Assembly: GCA_035498015.1 (NCBI GenBank) | Contig: DATKAO010000068.1 | Span: 1-43,744 of the forward strand | Reading direction: 5' to 3' | Source: Myxococcota bacterium | GTDB taxonomy: Bacteria; Myxococcota_A; UBA9160; SZUA-336 | Length of the DNA stretch: 43,744 bases | In this document: positions 1,430 through 9,630 of the stretch, piece after piece | Numbering within the stretch: position 1 is the stretch's first letter | Layout: every line of letters begins with the position of its first letter | Made by a program: the position numbers and the translations under genes | The notes under the pieces: model-generated | Seen by the model: only the letters and a program-made list of their open reading frames with translations | Databases searched by the model: none | Told to the model about the DNA's origin: nothing

Positions 1430-1481
1430 GGCGCGCGACAGACTCGCTCCCGAGTTGCCGAAGCGAGCCCGGAGACTGAAC

Positions 1482-2747
1482 GTGGGAACGCGACTCGCCA
1501 TTCACGGGGGCCCGCCGCTGCGCAGCGCGCCGTGGCCGGTCTGGCCCGAGCACGGCGCGCCGGAGCGCGCCGCCCTCGAGCGCGTGCTCGCGAGCGGCAA
1601 CTGGGGCGGCTTCCCGAGCCCCAACACCGAAGCGCGCGCATTCGCCGAAGAGTTCGCGCGCTTCGCCGGCGCAGCGCACGCGGTGACCTGCGCGAACGGC
1701 ACGTTCTCGCTGATGCTCGCGCTGCAAGCCGCGCGCGTGACTCCCGGCGCCGAGGTGATCACCACGGCCTACACGTTCGTGGGCACGGCGGGCGGGATCC
1801 TGGCGGCGGGCTGCGTGCCTGTGCTGGTCGACATCGACCCCGAGACCTACTGCATCGACCCGGCGGCGGTGGCCGCTGCAGTGACTCCGCGAACCGCGGC
1901 GCTGCTGCCGGTACACCTGGCCTGCACGATGGCCGACATGGACGCGCTGGGCGAGATCACGGCGCGGCACTCACTCCTCTTGGTCGAGGACTGCGCGCAC
2001 GCGCACGGCGCACGCTGGCGCGGCCGCGGTGCGGGCGCGATCGGCGACTTCGGCTCGTTCTCGCTGCAGAGCTCGAAGCTCCTCACCGCTGGCGAAGGCG
2101 GCGTGGTCACCACGAGCGATCCGACCCACGCCTCCCGGCTCGCGTCGCTCGTGAACTGCGGGCGCAAGGAGCCGGGTGCCGACGCCTTCCCCGAGCAGAT
2201 GCTCGGCCACAACCTGCGCATGACCGAGTGGCAGGCCGCGGTGCTGCGCGCCCAGCTCGAGAGACTCCCGGAGCAGAACGCGCGGCGCGAGCGAAACCTG
2301 GTCCGGCTCGAGCGCGCACTGGCGTCGCTGCCGGGACTCACTCCGCTCCGCCGCGACCCGCGGGTCACCGCCCGCGCCGCCTACCAGTTCGTGCTGCGCT
2401 ACGACGCCAGAGCCTTCGCGGGCGTGCCGCGCGACCACGTGATCCTGGCGCTGCGCGCCGAGGGCGTGCCCTGCTCCGGCCGCTTCTACACCCCGCTCGC
2501 CGAAGACCCGCTGTTCGCGCCCGACCCGCTCACCAATCCCGCCGCGCGCCAGGGCGTGCGCTGGGACCCGGCGGCGTTTCCGCGCGCGCATCGGGCCGCC
2601 TTCGAGGAGTCGATCTGGCTGCCGCACGAGCTGTTCCTGGGCGGCGAGCGCGAGGTCGACGACGTGGCCGAGGCCTGCGCGCGCATCCAGCGCCACGCGG
2701 CCGAGCTGCGCGCGCGCCCGCCGCAAGGCCCGGTCAGTCGCCGCTAG
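1482..2747 (+). CDS. DegT/DnrJ/EryC1/StrS family PLP aminotransferase
   Basis: A 421-residue fold-type I aminotransferase of the sugar/cyclitol family. Visible features with the chosen start: substrate loop TAYTFVGTAGG at about 95-105, cofactor Asp in VEDCAHAHGA (D170), and the PLP lysine in SLQSSKLLTAGEGG (K199). The family moves an amino group, normally from Glu or Gln, onto a keto-sugar or keto-cyclitol. There is no sugar-nucleotide dehydratase, epimerase or glycosyltransferase nearby, so the substrate is open. The GTG at 1482 is preferred over the in-frame TTG at 1455: GGAG lies at 1471-1474, 7 nt before it, and family proteins usually begin close to a 'LAIxGGxP' stretch as here. Confidence 0.9.
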   Translation: MGTRLAIHGGPPLRSAPWPVWPEHGAPERAALERVLASGNWGGFPSPNTEARAFAEEFARFAGAAHAVTCANGTFSLMLALQAARVTPGAEVITTAYTFVGTAGGILAAGCVPVLVDIDPETYCIDPAAVAAAVTPRTAALLPVHLACTMADMDALGEITARHSLLLVEDCAHAHGARWRGRGAGAIGDFGSFSLQSSKLLTAGEGGVVTTSDPTHASRLASLVNCGRKEPGADAFPEQMLGHNLRMTEWQAAVLRAQLERLPEQNARRERNLVRLERALASLPGLTPLRRDPRVTARAAYQFVLRYDARAFAGVPRDHVILALRAEGVPCSGRFYTPLAEDPLFAPDPLTNPAARQGVRWDPAAFPRAHRAAFEESIWLPHELFLGGEREVDDVAEACARIQRHAAELRARPPQGPVSRR

Positions 2748-2762
2748 TGCCGGCGCTTCGGG

Positions 2763-2768
2763 TAGAGT
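2763..2768 (+). promoter_or_regulatory. -10-like hexamer of the APH-fold kinase gene
   Basis: TAGAGT lies 8 nt before the ATG at 2777, in the 29-bp gap after the aminotransferase. No Shine-Dalgarno is present, which fits a leaderless or very short-leader transcript. Confidence 0.4.
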
Positions 2769-2776
2769 GAGCGCCC

Positions 2777-3781
2777 ATGGAGCTGCCCGAGCTCGAGCAG
2801 AGACTGGTCCCTTTCGCCCGCGCGAAGTACGCCGACCCGGCGGCCGAGGTGTTCGCCGTGCACAAGATGCCCGGTCACGCGGGCTTCTCGTACGGCTTCT
2901 CGGTGCGCTCGCGCGGCGCGGCCGAGAGCTGGTTCCTGCGCCTGCCGCCGCCGAACGTGCAGTGGAAGGGCACGGCCGACGTGCTGCGGCAGGTGAGCGC
3001 ACTGCGCGCGCTCGACGGCGGCCCGGTGCCGCACTGCTCGGTGCGCTGGGCCGGCGAGGAGCTCGAGTTCTTCGGCCGGCCCTACTTCGTGGTGCAAAAG
3101 CTCGAGGGCGACGTGCTGATGCTGGGGCCCGGCGAGTGGGCCGAGCCGTTCCCGCTGGCCAAGCGGCGCGAGATGGCCGCGGCCGCGATGACTGCGCTGG
3201 CGCAGATCCACCGCGTGGACTGGCGCGCGAAATGCGGGTATCTCGGCGATCCGATCGCGTTCGAGGACGACGTGACTCGCTGGGACCGCTTCGTGGAGCG
3301 CGCGGCCGAGCCCGAGTCGATGGCGCTCGTGCCCGAGGTGCGCGCGAAGCTCCTGGCCTCGCTGCCGCACGGCGCGCCGATCGGCCTGTTCCACGGTGAC
3401 TACAACTGGCGCAACACCTTCTGGTCGAGGGAAGGCACGCTCCTGGCGGTGATCGACTGGGAGCTGTGCGGGATCGGCGCCACGCTGAACGACGTGGGCT
3501 GGGTCGCGACCTTCAACGACCCCGACGCCTGGGCGAAGGGCGGCGCAGTGACTCCCATGCTGCTGCCCGCCGACGAGCTGGTCGAGCTGTACCAGCGCGC
3601 CTGGGGCGAGGAGCTCGCCAGCGTGGACTGGTTCCGCGCGCTCGCCGCCTACAAGTTCGCGATCATCACCGGCCTGAACCTCGGCCTGCACCGGCGCGGC
3701 AAGCGCCACGACCCGCTGTGGGAGGTCACCGGCAAGTCGATCGTGCCGCTGCTCGAGCGCGCGCGCTCACTGCTGGGCTGA
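2777..3781 (+). CDS. APH-fold (aminoglycoside phosphotransferase family) kinase-like protein
   Basis: A 334-residue protein with the APH/choline-kinase fold. The catalytic loop HGDYNWRN sits at about residues 206-213 (Brenner motif HGDxxxxN) and the metal-binding Asp in VIDWE at about 227. The N-lobe opens 'MPGHAGFSYGFSV', standing in for the glycine loop. Length and the 'HGDYNWRN...VIDWE' pattern fit the APH subfamily often found beside acyl-CoA dehydrogenases in environmental bacteria (ACAD10/11-like), which act on small hydroxylated metabolites, rather than drug-resistance enzymes. No acyl-CoA dehydrogenase is adjacent. The substrate is unknown. The gene ends 1 bp short of the convergent TPR gene. 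Confidence 0.85.
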   Translation: MELPELEQRLVPFARAKYADPAAEVFAVHKMPGHAGFSYGFSVRSRGAAESWFLRLPPPNVQWKGTADVLRQVSALRALDGGPVPHCSVRWAGEELEFFGRPYFVVQKLEGDVLMLGPGEWAEPFPLAKRREMAAAAMTALAQIHRVDWRAKCGYLGDPIAFEDDVTRWDRFVERAAEPESMALVPEVRAKLLASLPHGAPIGLFHGDYNWRNTFWSREGTLLAVIDWELCGIGATLNDVGWVATFNDPDAWAKGGAVTPMLLPADELVELYQRAWGEELASVDWFRALAAYKFAIITGLNLGLHRRGKRHDPLWEVTGKSIVPLLERARSLLG

Positions 3782-3782
3782 C

Positions 3783-4715
3783 TCAGAGGCGGCGCGCCTT
3801 CTCGTCGGCCCTGAGCTGCCGGTGCAGCGCCAACAGCTCGGGGTCGGTCCTGCGCAGCTTGAAGCGGAGCTGGAGCTTCCTGGCCCAGATCACGAGCATG
3901 GTCCCGCCGGTGACTGCCGCCACCGCCGTGAGGACTCGCTCGAGGTCGTCGGAAGCCGGATTCATCCCATCGACGTGCGGGGTCGTGAGTCGGGAGAATG
4001 CGGACCACAGCACCCAGAGCGCGGCCAGGGCGCCCGCGGCCTTGCCGAGGCGCTGATCGAGCAGGGCCTGCAGATTCTGCTTGGCGAGGCCGTGGGTCGG
4101 ATCGAGTCGGATCGCAGAGCGGTACACCTGCGTCGCCTCGTCGGCCTTGCCCTGACGCTGCAGCGCCACCGCCAGGTTGTTCAGCGCGTGCGGGTCGGCG
4201 GGGTCGAGCGCGAGTGACTTGCGGTACTCCTGCTCCGCCGCCGGGTAGCGCTCCAGCGCGAGACAGACATCGCCGCTCACGCTCCATACGTCGGGGTTCG
4301 CGGGGGAGAGCTGCGCCGCGACGTCGACCGCTGCGCGCGCCCGACCGTAGTCACGGAGCTTCAGCGCTGCGATCGCCAGCATGAGGTGCTCCCAGGCCGA
4401 GCTGGGAGACAGTCTCACCGCCTCTTCGGCGGCGGCCAGCGCGTTCAGGTGATCGCCGAGCGCGCCCAGGACCTCCGACTTCCTGGCATACGGCGCCGAC
4501 CACTCCGGCGCCCGCGCACTCGCCGCTTCGAGCGCGCGCAGCGCCTGGTGATTCCGGCCGAGGCCGGCGAGCGCTCGGGCCAGCGCATAGTGACTCGCGG
4601 CGCGCGCCGGATCGGCGGCGATCGCGCGGCCGGCGTGGTCCAACGCCTCCTCGAAGCGCCGGAGAGCGAGCGCCGCGTGCGCCCGCGCCAGGCTCTCGTC
4701 GGCCGCCCGAGTCAC
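3783..4715 (-). CDS. TPR/transmembrane protein, paralogue 3 of 3
   Basis: A 310-residue protein, last of three tandem paralogues. Residues from about 10 to 210 are degenerate TPR units: 'ALALRRFEEALDHAGRAIAADP', 'ALAGLGRNHQALRALE', 'AEQEYRKSLALDP', then a well-conserved 'NNLAVALQRQGKADEA' unit. Two hydrophobic segments follow, about residues 225-245 and 262-283, then a charged tail ending ADEKARRL. The same tail signature ('DPEL..L...L.AD..A.RL') ends all three paralogues. Its GTG start overlaps the stop of paralogue 2 by 4 nt (GTGA, 4712-4715), so translation is probably coupled. The likely layout is a TPR scaffold facing the cytoplasm, held by a C-terminal hairpin. Function unknown. Confidence 0.85.
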   Translation of the reverse strand: MTRAADESLARAHAALALRRFEEALDHAGRAIAADPARAASHYALARALAGLGRNHQALRALEAASARAPEWSAPYARKSEVLGALGDHLNALAAAEEAVRLSPSSAWEHLMLAIAALKLRDYGRARAAVDVAAQLSPANPDVWSVSGDVCLALERYPAAEQEYRKSLALDPADPHALNNLAVALQRQGKADEATQVYRSAIRLDPTHGLAKQNLQALLDQRLGKAAGALAALWVLWSAFSRLTTPHVDGMNPASDDLERVLTAVAAVTGGTMLVIWARKLQLRFKLRRTDPELLALHRQLRADEKARRL

Positions 4716-5587
4716 AGCCGTCCCGCCTTGTGGTCTGCGTCGAGGCGCTTCTGCAGCTCGCGCAGCTCGGGGTCACGCGAGCTGACTCGCGGCGGGCGGA
4801 ACAGGCGCGCCACCCCGTATGCCAGGAGCGCGAGCGCGGCCGTGCCCCCGAGCGCCGCCAGGATCGCGCCGCCCGCCGCACCCAGGTAGAGCGCGATCCA
4901 TGCCAGGAAGAAGAGCCCGCCGGTGCTGACCTTGGCCGATTTCGTGCGCAGCACGCTGCGCAGGTTTCGCTTCGCGACCCGGAGCGTCGGATCCGCACGG
5001 ATGGCAGCCCGATACGTGTCGAGCGCCTCGTCGGTCTTGCCCTGCCGGTTGAGCACGAGCGCCAGGTTGTTGAGCGCCGCGCCGTCGGCGGCCGAGATCG
5101 CGAGTGACTGGCGGTAGTGCTTCTCCGCGAGGACGTTCTGCTTCTGCGCCAGGTAGACGTCCCCGGCGAGCCGCTGGATCCAGGCGTCTTGGGGAGCGAG
5201 CTCGAGCGCGCGTTCGCACTCCGAGCGGGCGCGCAGAGACTCGCCGACCTTCTGCGCCGAGAGCGCCACCGCGATGTGCGCCGCGGCGGAGTGGGGTCCG
5301 AGGCGCACCGCTTCCTCCGCGGCAGCGAGGGCTTTGCGCGGCCAGCCGAGGCTGCGCTCGATGTCGGAGCGCAGCACGTGGGGCAGGAACCATTCGGGCC
5401 GTTTCGCGCTCGCGGTGCCGAGCGCCTCGAGCGCAGCGGTATTGCGCTCGAGGCCCCAGAGACCCCGCGCGAGCGCGTAGTAGCCGTTGGCGTCGTTGGG
5501 GTTGGCGGCGATCGCCAGCCCCGCCTCGCGCACGGCGTCGTCCCAGCGCCGCAGCTCGATCGCCGCGTTGGCGCGCGCGAGACTCAC
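4712..5587 (-). CDS. TPR/transmembrane protein, paralogue 2 of 3
   Basis: A 291-residue middle paralogue, with the same architecture as its neighbours. TPR helices cover about the first 200 residues (for example 'AIELRRWDDAVREAGLAIAANP', 'ARSECERALELAPQD', 'NNLALVLNRQGKTDEALDTY'). One or two hydrophobic segments follow at about 225-262, rich in Ala, Gly and Leu, then a polar tail ending ADHKAGRL. Both ends overlap neighbours by GTGA: its GTG start with the stop of paralogue 1 (5584-5587) and its stop with the start of paralogue 3 (4712-4715). Sequence drift between the copies points to old duplication rather than recent copying. No enzymatic motif is visible. Confidence 0.85.
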   Translation of the reverse strand: MSLARANAAIELRRWDDAVREAGLAIAANPNDANGYYALARGLWGLERNTAALEALGTASAKRPEWFLPHVLRSDIERSLGWPRKALAAAEEAVRLGPHSAAAHIAVALSAQKVGESLRARSECERALELAPQDAWIQRLAGDVYLAQKQNVLAEKHYRQSLAISAADGAALNNLALVLNRQGKTDEALDTYRAAIRADPTLRVAKRNLRSVLRTKSAKVSTGGLFFLAWIALYLGAAGGAILAALGGTAALALLAYGVARLFRPPRVSSRDPELRELQKRLDADHKAGRL

Positions 5588-6507
5588 AGCCTTCCCGCGT
5601 GGTGGTCCGCTTCGAGGCGCTCGTGCAGTGAGCGCAGGTCCGGGTCGAGCTCACTCAGCCGTCGCCGGTACTCGCTCTTCACTCCCAGCACCCCGAGCGC
5701 CACGAAGGCCAGGCCGCAGAGCATGAACAGAAACATCACGTCGCCGCCCGACGTCTGCGCGTTCTCGGGCAGGCTCGAGCCCACATGGCCGAGCTGCAAG
5801 ACGAGCCACATCACGACGCCGATGCCGCCGATGCCCGCCTTCCCGAGCTTCTTGCCGAGCAGGTTGCGCAGGTTCCGCTTCACGACGTGCAGATTCGGGT
5901 CGGCGTTCACGGCCGCTCGGAACGCGTCGAGCGCCTCATCGGCCTTGCCTTGTCTCTGCAGGGCGAGCGCGAGATTGTTGAGCGCAAGCGCGTCGCCGGC
6001 GTCGAGCTCGAGCGAGCGGCGGTACTGACTCTCGGCCTGGGCGTTGGCGTGCTGTGCGAGAAACACGTCGCCGGCACAGCGCTGCAGCGGCGCGCTGCGC
6101 GGTGCGAGCGCCAGCGCGCGCCCCGACTCCCCACGCGCGCGCGCCGCGTCGCCGAGCTTCTGCGCGGACAAGGCGACGGCCATGTGCGCGGTGGCAGAGT
6201 GGGGATCGAGACGCAGCGCCTCTTCGGCGGCCGCGAGCGCCTGGCGATACGAGCCCGCGAAGCGCAGCACGTCGGAACGGAGCACGTGAGGAGGGGACCA
6301 GGTCGGTGACTTCGCGCACGCGGTCTCGAGCGCGTGCAGCGCCTCTTCTTCGCGCCCGAGCTCCAACAGCGCCCGGCCCAGGAAGTAATGGCCGCTCGGG
6401 CCCTCGGGATCCTCGCCGATCGCGCGCAGCGCCTCGTGGACCGCCTCCTGCCAGCGGCCGAGCTCGAGCGCCGCCTGCGCGCGCGCGAGGCTCGACGCTT
6501 CACTCAC
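5584..6507 (-). CDS. TPR/transmembrane protein, paralogue 1 of 3
   Basis: A 307-residue protein from a GTG at 6507. That start overlaps the AAA+ stop codon as GTGA (6504-6507), so I prefer it to the much longer open frame that runs back through the ATPase. TPR units ('ALELGRWQEAVHEALRAIGEDP', 'LGRALLELGREEEALHALE', 'NNLALALQRQGKADEALDAF') fill about residues 8-210. Two membrane segments follow, near 222-242 and 256-280, then a tail ending ADHHAGRL. The immediate coupling to the ATPase suggests that the TPR proteins are its adaptors or membrane dock. That partnership is inference from gene order. Confidence 0.85.
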   Translation of the reverse strand: MSEASSLARAQAALELGRWQEAVHEALRAIGEDPEGPSGHYFLGRALLELGREEEALHALETACAKSPTWSPPHVLRSDVLRFAGSYRQALAAAEEALRLDPHSATAHMAVALSAQKLGDAARARGESGRALALAPRSAPLQRCAGDVFLAQHANAQAESQYRRSLELDAGDALALNNLALALQRQGKADEALDAFRAAVNADPNLHVVKRNLRNLLGKKLGKAGIGGIGVVMWLVLQLGHVGSSLPENAQTSGGDVMFLFMLCGLAFVALGVLGVKSEYRRRLSELDPDLRSLHERLEADHHAGRL

Positions 6508-7700
6508 ACCAGGCCTCGCGCGCGCAGGTGCGCGAGCAGGTCGTCGTACACGCCGCCCTCGTTGGCGTACACCGCGTAGTTGCGCGCGGTGTCGAGCCAG
6601 GGGCGGATCGAAGGGCGCGCGTCGCGCAGCGCGGCCGCGAGCAGCTTGTCGTCGATCGGCTGCACGGCGCCGGCGTCGACCGTGCGCTCGAAGGCGAGCT
6701 CGGAGGCGGCGTTCACCAGCGCCTCGAGGTCGGCGCCCGAGAAGCCCTCGGTATCTCGCGCCACGCGTCCGAGGTCGGGTGCACCGGGCCGGCCCTCCAT
6801 CTTGAGTGACAGGATGCGCAGACGCGCGGGCAGGTCGGGCGGCGGCACGAACACCATGCGGTCGAAGCGCCCGGGGCGGCGCACCGCGGTGTCGACGTCC
6901 CAGGGATGGTTGGTCGCGCCCAGCACGAACACGTCGCGGTTGCGGCCGTCGACGCCGTCGAGCTCGGCGAGGAACTGATTCACCACGTTGCGGCCCGCGG
7001 AGTGCTTGAGCTGCGTGCGGCGCTGGCCCAGCGCATCGACCTCGTCGAAGAACAGCACCATGGGCGCCTGCCGGCGCGCGGTCTCGAACAGCTCGTGGAG
7101 CTTGCGCTCGCTCTCGCCGAGCCACATGTCGAGCACGTCGGAGAGACCGATCGACTGGAAGCGCGCGCCGAGCTCGCCTGCCAGAGCGCGCGCGATGAAC
7201 GTCTTCCCGCAGCCGGGCGGGCCGTACAGCAACAGGCCCCCGCGCAGGCTCTTGCCGAACTGCGCGAACAGCTCGGGCTTCTGCAGCGGCAGCAGGAACG
7301 AACGAGTCAGGCGCTGCTTCACGTCGTCGAGACCGCCCACGTCGGCGAAGGTGACTCGCGCCTCCGCCGCCTCGGCCACGTCCTCCTCGCTGACCAGGCG
7401 CAGGCGGCCGCGCGCCGGGGCCGGAGCCTGCGGCTCTCGAGCCTGCGCGCCCTGACCCTGCGCCGGCACCTGCTCCGGGTCAGCGTGAGCCGCTTCGTGG
7501 GCGCGCCGCGCCATCTCCTGCAGGTCGCGGCTCGCCGGGTCGAGCGTGAGGCCGAGCCCGGCCTCCTGGAGCGCCTCCTGCGGCGCTCCCAGCTCGAGGC
7601 AGCGGCGCGCCAGCGCGAGCCGGAGCTCGGGGCTGTCTTTCACGGCTGCGGCCGCGCGCAGGGCCGCGACCACGGGATCGCTGGACATGGAGGAGGACAT
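6504..7700 (-). CDS. Single-domain AAA+ ATPase with an N-terminal TPR-like region
   Basis: A 398-residue soluble ATPase. With the start at 7700: a TPR-like helix pair at about 24-70 (LELGAPQEALQEA...DP, resembling the first repeat of the downstream proteins), a Pro/Ala/Gln linker at 75-98, then one classical AAA domain with FADVGGLDDVK (118-128), Walker A GPPGCGKT (160-167), Walker B LFFDEVDALG (216-225), sensor-1 in GATNHPWD (N264) and the arginine-finger region RRPGRFDR (274-281). It resembles Cdc48/FtsH-class AAA domains but has no protease domain. No membrane segment is visible. The start could also be the ATG at 7688; neither has a Shine-Dalgarno. TAAGTT at 7714-7719 is a possible -10. 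It heads the operon with three TPR/membrane genes. Confidence 0.88.
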   Translation of the reverse strand: MSSSMSSDPVVAALRAAAAVKDSPELRLALARRCLELGAPQEALQEAGLGLTLDPASRDLQEMARRAHEAAHADPEQVPAQGQGAQAREPQAPAPARGRLRLVSEEDVAEAAEARVTFADVGGLDDVKQRLTRSFLLPLQKPELFAQFGKSLRGGLLLYGPPGCGKTFIARALAGELGARFQSIGLSDVLDMWLGESERKLHELFETARRQAPMVLFFDEVDALGQRRTQLKHSAGRNVVNQFLAELDGVDGRNRDVFVLGATNHPWDVDTAVRRPGRFDRMVFVPPPDLPARLRILSLKMEGRPGAPDLGRVARDTEGFSGADLEALVNAASELAFERTVDAGAVQPIDDKLLAAALRDARPSIRPWLDTARNYAVYANEGGVYDDLLAHLRARGLV

Positions 7701-7783
7701 CGGTCGCCAGAGCAACTTACAACACCCCCCCGCATGACTCACTGCAGCCGCGCTTGCGGCACGGCCTTCCGTTTCGTGGTGGA

Positions 7784-7803
7784 GTGCAACATATCGACTG
7801 CAC
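7784..7803. promoter_or_regulatory. Candidate operator, inverted repeat GTGCA-N10-TGCAC
   Basis: Perfect 5-bp arms separated by 10 bp in the divergent region between the AAA+ gene and the TetR gene. Position and symmetry fit a TetR-family operator, but five base pairs can arise by chance. Confidence 0.3.
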
Positions 7804-7828
7804 TGGCTTTTTCGCCTCGATTTCGAAC

Positions 7829-7857
7829 TTGCATTCGGTTTTCGGCTGACGTAGGCT
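7829..7857 (+). promoter_or_regulatory. Promoter of the TetR/diiron operon
   Basis: TTGCAT (7829-7834), a 17-bp spacer and TAGGCT (7852-7857), followed 10 nt later by the ATG at 7868. The region around it is locally A+T-richer than the flanks. The short leader has no Shine-Dalgarno. Confidence 0.45.
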
Positions 7858-7867
7858 GCGCGGCGAG

Positions 7868-8533
7868 ATGGCCCGTACTCCCCGCTCGGTCCCGAAGTCG
7901 GTCGTCGTGCTTGCGCGCGCCCGCACCCAGGCGCGCGGCGTGGCGACCCGCCGGCGCGTGCTGCAGGCCGCCGAGTCACTCTTCGCGCGGCGCGGCTACG
8001 AAGCCACCAGCATGGCCGACGTGGCCGAGCGCGCCTCGGTGGGCGTGGGCACGCTCTACCACCACTTCCCCGACAAGCGCGCGCTCCTGCTGGCGCTGAT
8101 CGACGACTGGGGCGACCGCGAGCTGGCCCATGGCCGCAACCGCCACGACGCCGACCGCCTGATCGGCGCCGGCGCGCGCGCCGCGTTCGGCGACGACCTG
8201 CGCGCGAGCTACGAGAGACTCTGCCGCGAGGGCGGCTTCTATCTCGTGCTGCTCGAGCTGGCCGAGCGCGACTCCGACGCGCGCCAGCGCCTGAACCGCA
8301 TCAACCAGGTGGCGGACGAGAGACTGCGCGACCTCCTGGCGCTGGGTCAGAAGCGCGGCGTGATTCGCGCCGAGATCGACCCGCTCGCCGCCTCGGTGCT
8401 GGTGCGCCGCTCGATCGAGGCGGCCGCGACCGAAGTGTTCGTGCACCGCATGACCGATCCCGCCCCCGAGCGGATGCTCGAGGGACTCACCGACATGATC
8501 TGCCGCTACATCTTCACCGAGGAGACCCGCTGA
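7868..8533 (+). CDS. TetR/AcrR family transcriptional regulator
   Basis: A 221-residue regulator. A TetR helix-turn-helix lies at about residues 25-70: 'ATRRRVLQAAESLFARRGYEATSM', 'ADVAERASVGVGTLYHHFPDKRALL'. The C-terminal half is a helical ligand domain with no recognisable ligand signature. The stop overlaps the next start as TGATG (8531-8535), so it is co-transcribed with the diiron gene and probably controls that operon and itself. A GTGCA-N10-TGCAC inverted repeat at 7784-7803 is a possible binding site. Ligand unknown. Confidence 0.9.
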   Translation: MARTPRSVPKSVVVLARARTQARGVATRRRVLQAAESLFARRGYEATSMADVAERASVGVGTLYHHFPDKRALLLALIDDWGDRELAHGRNRHDADRLIGAGARAAFGDDLRASYERLCREGGFYLVLLELAERDSDARQRLNRINQVADERLRDLLALGQKRGVIRAEIDPLAASVLVRRSIEAAATEVFVHRMTDPAPERMLEGLTDMICRYIFTEETR

Positions 8534-9630
8534 TGGCCACGCAACCCGTTGCCCCCCGTCTCGACTGGCAGGTGCTGGACACCTACAAGACCCCGATGGA
8601 GATCGCCTGGCAGTTCGACTACGAGATCGACATCGAGAAGCTGCGCAACCTGTACTCCAAGGCGAAGCAGAACCAGTGGGACGGCGAGCGCCAGCTCGCC
8701 TGGGACACGCACGTCGATCCGTCGAAGCCGATCGTCGGCGAGGACCGCTTCATGTTCCTGCAGATGCCGTTCATGCAGCGCATGTCGCAGTCACAGCGCG
8801 AGATGTTCACGGCGCACGCCACGGCCCAGCTCCTGTCGCAGTTCCTGCACGGCGAGCAGGGCGCGCTGATGACGGCGGCGGCGGCGACTCACGCCTGCCC
8901 CGACTACGAGGCGAAGCTCTACGGCGCCACGCAGACCATGGACGAGGCGCGCCACGTCGAGGTGTACGAGCGCTACGTGCGCAAGCTCGCGATCGTGTAC
9001 CCGATCTCGCCCTGGCTGAAGGAAGTCATCGACCTCACGCTCCAGGCGGATCACTTCGTGAAGATCCTGATCGGCATGAACATGGTGGTCGAGGGGCTGG
9101 CGCTGGCCGCGTTCCACAACATGCGCCGCCAGGCCACCTGCCCGCTGCTGCGCGACCTGACTCACTACGTGCTGCAGGACGAGTCGCGCCACGTGGCCTT
9201 CGGAAACGTCTACGTGAAGGAGACGATTGCCGGGATGCACCCCGACGACCGCGAGGACGTGGCGCAGTTCGCCTTCGAGGCCGTGAAGAGCATGGTCGAC
9301 TCACAGGGCGGCGTGGACGGCACCGGCCAGCGCAAGGGCGACCCGGGCTTCTTCAAGGTGCTCGAGCACTGCTCGATCGACCCCCAGGACTTCATCAAGG
9401 GCATCATCGAGGCGGGCGCCGCGGGCATCAACGCGAAGCTCCCGCCGGGTCACATCCACAGCTTCAAGGACTTGATGATGCCGGCGCTGGTGCGCGTCGG
9501 CGCCGTCACCCCGCGCACGCGCGAGCTCTACCAGGAAGCCGGCATCCCGGTCTGGGAGGATGCGAGCGTGCTCGAGTCGATGGAGGAAGGCAGCACCGGG
9601 GACATCGTGATGCCGGAGATCAAGCACTAG
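8533..9630 (+). CDS. Ferritin-like diiron oxidase/oxygenase family protein
   Basis: A 365-residue, mostly helical protein with a carboxylate-bridged diiron site pattern. Candidate ligands, in order: Glu in HGEQGAL, Glu and His in MDEARHVEVY (ExxH), Glu in VVEGLALAAF, and Glu and His in QDESRHVAFG (ExxH). Two ExxH pairs plus two single Glu residues is the signature of the ferritin-like superfamily that includes ribonucleotide reductase R2, AurF-type N-oxygenases and bacterial monooxygenases. It is longer than ferritins, and no electron-transfer partner is next to it. Substrate unknown; oxidation of a lipid or aromatic compound is plausible. It is second in a likely operon with TetR, OsmC and a transglutaminase-like gene. 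Confidence 0.8.
   Translation: MATQPVAPRLDWQVLDTYKTPMEIAWQFDYEIDIEKLRNLYSKAKQNQWDGERQLAWDTHVDPSKPIVGEDRFMFLQMPFMQRMSQSQREMFTAHATAQLLSQFLHGEQGALMTAAAATHACPDYEAKLYGATQTMDEARHVEVYERYVRKLAIVYPISPWLKEVIDLTLQADHFVKILIGMNMVVEGLALAAFHNMRRQATCPLLRDLTHYVLQDESRHVAFGNVYVKETIAGMHPDDREDVAQFAFEAVKSMVDSQGGVDGTGQRKGDPGFFKVLEHCSIDPQDFIKGIIEAGAAGINAKLPPGHIHSFKDLMMPALVRVGAVTPRTRELYQEAGIPVWEDASVLESMEEGSTGDIVMPEIKH

Follow-up and report, generated by a model that had tools for sequence, protein, structure and literature searches.

In this study, we analyzed a 43,744-nucleotide stretch of DNA (hereafter the window; contig DATKAO010000068.1 of assembly GCA_035498015.1, from a Myxococcota bacterium), in which four genes on the minus strand (3783-7700) encode one ATPase followed by three tetratricopeptide repeat (TPR)-membrane proteins, and found that the pairing of such an ATPase with a TPR-membrane partner is real, widespread among bacteria and ancient. 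With moderate confidence, we consider the two to form a two-component, non-proteolytic, membrane-docked machine for unfolding/extraction or release, of which the docking and the clients are the parts that we infer. A reading made from the sequence alone had described an AAA protein with three diverged TPR/membrane paralogues, and all of these elements were recovered by Pfam matches, an AlphaFold2 model and sequence identities. The four genes are:

6504 to 7700, minus strand: classic AAA ATPase P0001 (398 residues; start at ATG 7700 or the alternative ATG 7688)
5584 to 6507, minus strand: TPR-membrane protein 1, P0002 (307 residues; matches to Pfam TPR families)
4712 to 5587, minus strand: TPR-membrane protein 2, P0003 (291 residues; 57% identity to P0002)
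3783 to 4715, minus strand: TPR-membrane protein 3, P0004 (310 residues; 43% identity to P0002)

First, 80 relatives of the ATPase were retrieved from 84,980 genome representatives; together with one locus from the phylum survey (L010) they made 81. The 80 relatives span Actinomycetota, Pseudomonadota, Myxococcota-like metagenome-assembled genomes (MAGs), Armatimonadota, Chloroflexota, Planctomycetota, Bacteroidota and Acidobacteriota (at least seven phyla, as taken from record titles). A same-strand TPR-membrane gene adjoined the ATPase in 74 of the 81. Among the remaining seven, the partner was convergent in L116, cut at the contig end in L081 and slightly further upstream in L073, and L110 and L111 stop at contig edges; L047 and L112 were the only truly solo ATPases. 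The link survives rearrangement, because a convergent copy occurs in L116 and an extra TPR-membrane gene, divergent from the ATPase, stands beside the usual downstream partner in L040 (L040:6888-7961, minus strand). The gene order was ATPase-TPR in most relatives and TPR-ATPase in a Myxococcota-type group, and the same free-standing two-gene cassette was present on annotated plasmids of Streptomyces and Actinomyces, where it is annotated as 'ATP-binding protein' plus 'tetratricopeptide repeat protein'. The helix count of the partner varied widely among relatives (about 4-6 predicted transmembrane (TM) helices in L052, L067, L078 and L101), and three tandem partners were found only at the present locus among about 107 loci, with about 93 having one and a handful having two. 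The AAA and TPR distances were correlated (r=0.76; permutation maximum 0.12). Clustering of the neighbouring open reading frames revealed no recurrent third gene near the pair, but clade-specific clusters and apparent frame-shadows of the two genes, a status judged from the breadth of the clusters and not position by position. Three records titled as MAGs of Bifidobacterium breve or Klebsiella pneumoniae (L066, L094 and L106) carried Myxococcota-like TPR-ATPase pairs, and these titles look wrong. An Isoptericola contig of 13,876 bases (L099/L100; NZ_LWGM01000067.1) contained two opposite ATPase copies, probably an inverted-repeat assembly product.

Second, a survey of 379 genomes of the phylum revealed the ATPase in 47 of them and the TPR partner (E<1e-50) in 26. 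The sequence-only reading had named TPR genes occurring mostly without the ATPase as the outcome that would speak against it; instead, strong TPR partners were confined to genomes with the ATPase (26/26), a co-occurrence with a hypergeometric chance of 1e-27 when genomes are treated as independent, an assumption that their kinship violates. Weaker TPR matches were present in six ATPase-less genomes, partly within long unrelated reading frames. Within the genome of the window, the ATPase profile scored 512 bits at the locus vs 245 bits for the next match (FtsH-like), and the TPR profile 255-270 bits vs 99 bits. It could be argued that the TPR genes are generic and lie beside the ATPase by history, with no joint work, given the abundance of such genes (this genome alone has 43 matches at E<=1e-5). 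However, the adjacency extends over several phyla in both gene orders, the starts are coupled, and a sharp score gap separates the partners from other TPR proteins; we regard this possibility as very improbable. In genomes G121 and G354, where the ATPase had no adjacent TPR gene, the best TPR match was located on another contig (L183:2525-3799 and L187:3307-4695, both on the minus strand), each time in the same neighbourhood, beside a gene starting with MDFSMFDDE or similar, and might represent an unlinked partner.

The coupled starts of the locus are three overlaps:

6504 to 6507, minus strand: GTGA overlap between the ATPase and TPR protein 1
5584 to 5587, minus strand: GTGA overlap between TPR proteins 1 and 2
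4712 to 4715, minus strand: GTGA overlap between TPR proteins 2 and 3

At each junction the downstream GTG start overlaps the upstream TGA stop within a 4-nucleotide GTGA, exactly as had been claimed for all three; equal production of the four proteins, on the other hand, does not follow from the overlaps. Elsewhere, 46 of the 73 ATPase/TPR pairs that could be scored allow an overlap of -4 nucleotides, which is more than chance, although the start picker favours -4 (the misassigned L086 was left out of the count). The GC content of the operon was 0.70-0.74, like that of its surroundings, and base composition gave no mark of transfer when the operon was compared with them.

Third, the domain content and fold of P0001 were analyzed together with its conservation over 54 relatives. 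Three parts of the protein could be distinguished:

7488 to 7676, minus strand: TPR-like N-terminal domain of P0001, residues 9-71, two helix hairpins (AlphaFold2; TPR_19 in relatives)
6843 to 7235, minus strand: AAA core, residues 156-286 (Pfam; column conservation)
6516 to 6611, minus strand: family-specific C-terminal tail, residues 364-395 (conservation)

P0001 is a classic AAA ATPase, with Pfam matches to PF00004 (141.5 bits) and AAA_lid_3 (38.9 bits). In the AlphaFold2 model, which was built with the 54 relatives as input and had a mean predicted local distance difference test (pLDDT) score of 89.9, N-terminal helices (residues 9-71) are followed by a disordered linker (79-109), the AAA core plus lid, and three further C-terminal helices. 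The N-terminal block comprises four helices (9-21, 24-36, 40-53 and 58-71; pLDDT about 96), and TPR_19 was matched at E<=1e-3 in 35 of the 54 relatives; P0001 itself lies below Pfam significance for TPR. The proposed TPR-like N-terminus was thus borne out by both the helix block and the relatives. The active site is intact, and the core contains Walker A (GPPGCGKT), the pore loop (WLG), Walker B (FFDE), the sensor (NHPWDVD) and the arginine fingers (RRPGR). Walker A/B, N264, P266, W267, D270, R275 and R278 were invariant in all 54 relatives, and the pore-loop position 193 was W or Y in 53 of them; such an aromatic pore loop is consistent with a hexameric threading unfoldase. The tail follows the partly family-specific pattern W..A.NY..(F/Y)AN..G.YD(D/E)L..Y (W368 and A372 in 54/54; G383 and D386 in 53/54), and in alignment the first tail helix coincides with the C-terminal helix of p97 D2. 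The nearest solved domains were p97 D2, NVL and Rix7, with Vps4 and spastin about 1-2 Z units below (p97 D2 and Vps4 at Z 26-28). Among NCBIfam families, CDC48 (207.2 bits), FtsH (204.5), PAN (201) and CdvC (163.5) scored highest in this comparison, all far under the family cut-offs. P0001 contained no protease domain and the locus no protease, in agreement with the claimed absence of one. On the basis of these scores and of the domain and fold data, P0001 represents a separate family within the classic AAA proteins, without protease.

Fourth, all three partners matched Pfam TPR families, and the following parts of them were located:

5647 to 5889, minus strand: predicted membrane hairpin of P0002, residues 207-287 (AlphaFold2 helices 207-243 and 248-287)
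5587 to 5649, minus strand: C-terminal signature of P0002, LDPDLRSLHERLEADHHAGRL (alignment with two orphan proteins)
4715 to 4777, minus strand: C-terminal signature of P0003, RDPELRELQKRLDADHKAGRL (same five-protein tail alignment)
3786 to 3848, minus strand: C-terminal signature of P0004, TDPELLALHRQLRADEKARRL (same five-protein tail alignment)

The P0002 model (mean pLDDT 92.9) consists of six TPRs (6-202), the two long hairpin helices, in which the hydrophobic stretches sit, and a C-terminal helix (289-306); a structure search with it retrieved generic TPR superhelices only. Judging from the sequence, the hairpin has K/R-rich flanks and a K/R-free loop, and by the positive-inside rule both the TPRs and the C-terminal tail are therefore probably cytoplasmic. 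P0002-P0004 are true paralogues, as P0003 and P0004 share more identity with P0002 than the 33-34% found for the best outside protein. The signature AD..A.RL, which had been claimed for the C-termini, was found in all three. Its absence outside the locus had been named as a further outcome that would speak against the reading, and here the result was mixed. The consensus LDPxLRxLxxxLxxDxxAGRL (the GRL tail) was common to the TPR proteins of the locus and to two orphan TPR-membrane genes only, one each in G071 and G119, two genomes of one other genus, which also encode the ATPase elsewhere with other TPR partners. A profile of the five proteins found no further GRL-tail protein in the 379 genomes of the phylum, and the tail was undetectable in the general partner family (ungapped five-tail profile vs 98 partner proteins, no z >3.5). 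A family-wide tail, including a likeness by eye to Solirubrobacter partners (DDRRARRL), was considered and is not claimed, given the same threshold. The orphan genes (L184:3682-4737, plus strand; L185:4248-5321, minus strand) adjoin genes for PknB-like Ser/Thr kinases.

These data are the basis for the membrane-docked machine proposed above, namely the pairing in 74/81 relatives, the 26/26 co-occurrence, the clean profile gaps, the distance correlation, the conserved residues, the p97/Vps4 folds, the AlphaFold2 anatomy and the plasmid cassettes. In such a machine, six ATPase subunits would form a threading ring. The N-terminal TPR pair would pack on the cytoplasmic TPR superhelix of the partner and so keep the ring at the inner face of the cytoplasmic membrane, and the conserved C-terminal tail of the ATPase may pack there as well. 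The membrane partner would also gather clients. Threading of a client through the pore, driven by ATP hydrolysis, would unfold it, extract it from the membrane or free it from a complex, but not degrade it. Two duplications of the partner gene at the present locus have probably created several variants for docking or client recognition, made from one translationally coupled mRNA. Several observations weigh against this reading: the ATPase lacked an adjacent partner at L159, L160 and L174 of the phylum survey; the correlation of AAA and TPR distances dropped to 0.22 for diverged pairs, and co-divergence may only reflect shared ancestry; and no co-inherited client gene was found near the pair, which leaves the substrate unconstrained. 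Thus, for the membrane-docked remodelling complex that had been suggested, the tie of the ATPase to a TPR-membrane partner beyond the locus, the lack of a protease and a fitting domain anatomy stood, whereas the docking itself is something that we infer. The TPR scaffold may be heteromeric, as had also been suggested; three copies are exceptional among the loci.

A different division of labour, reminiscent of Vps4 and ESCRT-III, would make the TPR-membrane proteins a substrate scaffold that the ATPase disassembles by pulling, here on the GRL tail, with the paralogues comparable to ESCRT-III subunits. The fold kinship of P0001, a classic AAA protein, to Vps4 (Z 26-27), the several partner paralogues and a C-terminal tail that is exposed and conserved in five proteins agree with it, and so does a report that sets a TPR+TM gene in the place that snf7 occupies in archaea (PMC11237479). 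However, no such tail is detectable in the general partner family and most loci have a single partner. Furthermore, TPR superhelices are not known to polymerise in the manner of ESCRT-III. On balance, we regard this scaffold-as-substrate arrangement as unlikely. It appears quite unlikely that Vps4 logic extends over several phyla, with a TPR-membrane scaffold in place of ESCRT-III on which the ATPase both docks and acts to dismantle it, the present locus being a multi-subunit form with the tail as handle.

The genomic surroundings were also examined. The ATPase/TPR genes are neighboured by APH, TetR and AurF-like genes. On the plus strand (window 7868-9630), the TetR gene is divergent from the operon, with 167 nucleotides between the starts, and overlaps the AurF-like di-iron gene. 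In a genome of the same genus (G001), the DegT and AurF-like flanks are kept, and an MBOAT-like gene (named from its sequence, not by profile) plus another gene replace APH, the TPR genes, the ATPase and TetR. The spot between the DegT and AurF-like genes (window 1455-3781 vs L190:4332-11000) therefore carries different cargo in two genomes of the genus and looks variable; the unit is thus gained or lost as a block. The syntenic site of G001 lacks TetR as well as the AAA/TPR genes, which makes TetR a candidate regulator of the operon; a search of 7640-7900 for an inverted-repeat operator found none.

Such a variable site between conserved neighbours might point to a stress or anti-phage module, in which the TPR-membrane protein would detect infection or damage to the envelope, with the ATPase as the effector or remodeller. 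The patchy spread (2 of 60 near relatives, the window's own genome included, and 47/379 in the phylum), the presence of the pair on large actinobacterial plasmids and a weak similarity to the defence ATPase IetA are also in its favour. However, this similarity equals that of any classic AAA protein (104.6 bits vs a cut-off of 510), an IetS-like protease does not adjoin, no defence genes were seen to recur near the pair, and family members were not seen in viral contigs in a scan with generic patterns. Taken together, a defence or stress role seems rather improbable. Assignment to a known defence system by profile (PADLOC, PHROGs) was rejected, as only generic AAA or TPR similarity was obtained. 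A viral origin was likewise set aside: the best match in the viral-contig scan was 3e-53, to distant AAA proteins only, vs about 1e-77 or better for those relatives that were retained from genome contigs, a weak absence given the generic patterns, and phage records gave FtsH-like or unannotated AAA matches only.

Bacterial motors of the p97/Vps4 type, besides FtsH and the proteasome ATPases, have scarcely been studied. A motor with a dedicated membrane TPR partner offers a tractable route to a possible bacterial non-proteolytic extraction/disassembly machine, the more so as the pair occurs in actinobacteria and proteobacteria that can be grown in culture (Streptomyces, Solirubrobacter, Cellulosimicrobium, Thiobaca and Rubrivivax), and the three-copy locus is a natural test of interchangeable docking sites vs distinct client adaptors.

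Finally, we compared the pair with known systems. One sentence in a previous study (PMC11237479; mSystems 2024) mentions bacterial 'VPS4-like' AAA ATPases adjoining a gene for TPR plus six TM helices (example ACB74714.1), the gene in the archaeal snf7 place referred to above. By this description, the pair very probably belongs to the same family as ours: both combine a single classic AAA ATPase with a TPR protein bearing membrane helices, whereas the partner here has one two-helix hairpin (P0002 model) instead of six TM helices and occurs in three copies with a GRL tail. No other relevant publication on the pair was found in a search outside which most subscription journals lie. The statement that no known system name fits thus held insofar as the pairing has neither a name nor an experiment, but the pairing itself had been mentioned.

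With Vps4/CdvC and ESCRT-III the pair shares a classic AAA single ring, a putative N-terminal helical docking domain and probable action at the membrane, and P0001 matches archaeal and yeast Vps4 structures (Z 26-27). Vps4_C had no Pfam match in P0001, yet Vps4 structures can be aligned to the model as far as residues 384-388. However, Pfam revealed no MIT domain in P0001 at E<=0.01, the N-terminus being TPR-like instead; no ESCRT-III (Snf7) gene adjoins it, the neighbours being TPR, APH, TetR and AurF-like genes; and its CdvC score of 163.5 bits compares with a cut-off of 650. P0001 was not filed as Vps4 because the MIT domain and the ESCRT-III partner were looked for and not found. By profile as well as by structure, the nearest AAA domain is that of CDC48/p97/VCP (p97 D2), which also has a WLG-type pore loop, but P0001 has one AAA domain instead of two and no p97 N-domain (207.2 bits vs a cut-off of 802.65). 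FtsH, bacterial and membrane-linked as well, is similar in its AAA domain, from which alone the 204.5 bits come (cut-off 600); P0001 lacks its zinc protease domain and has no membrane segment of its own. P0001 differs from IetAS in its low IetA score and in having TPR and TetR genes beside it instead of a subtilisin-like IetS, and from MoxR-vWA-TPR (Bat-type) systems in being a classic AAA protein, not MoxR, with no vWA match in the four locus proteins. Pex1/Pex6 with Pex26 and Msp1/ATAD1 are eukaryotic membrane-held AAA motors that extract proteins without degrading them; they are compared here for the way they work only, and no membership is claimed. In general, this kind of gene pair is already known but uncharacterised, and the triplication and the GRL tail are what is special to this locus.

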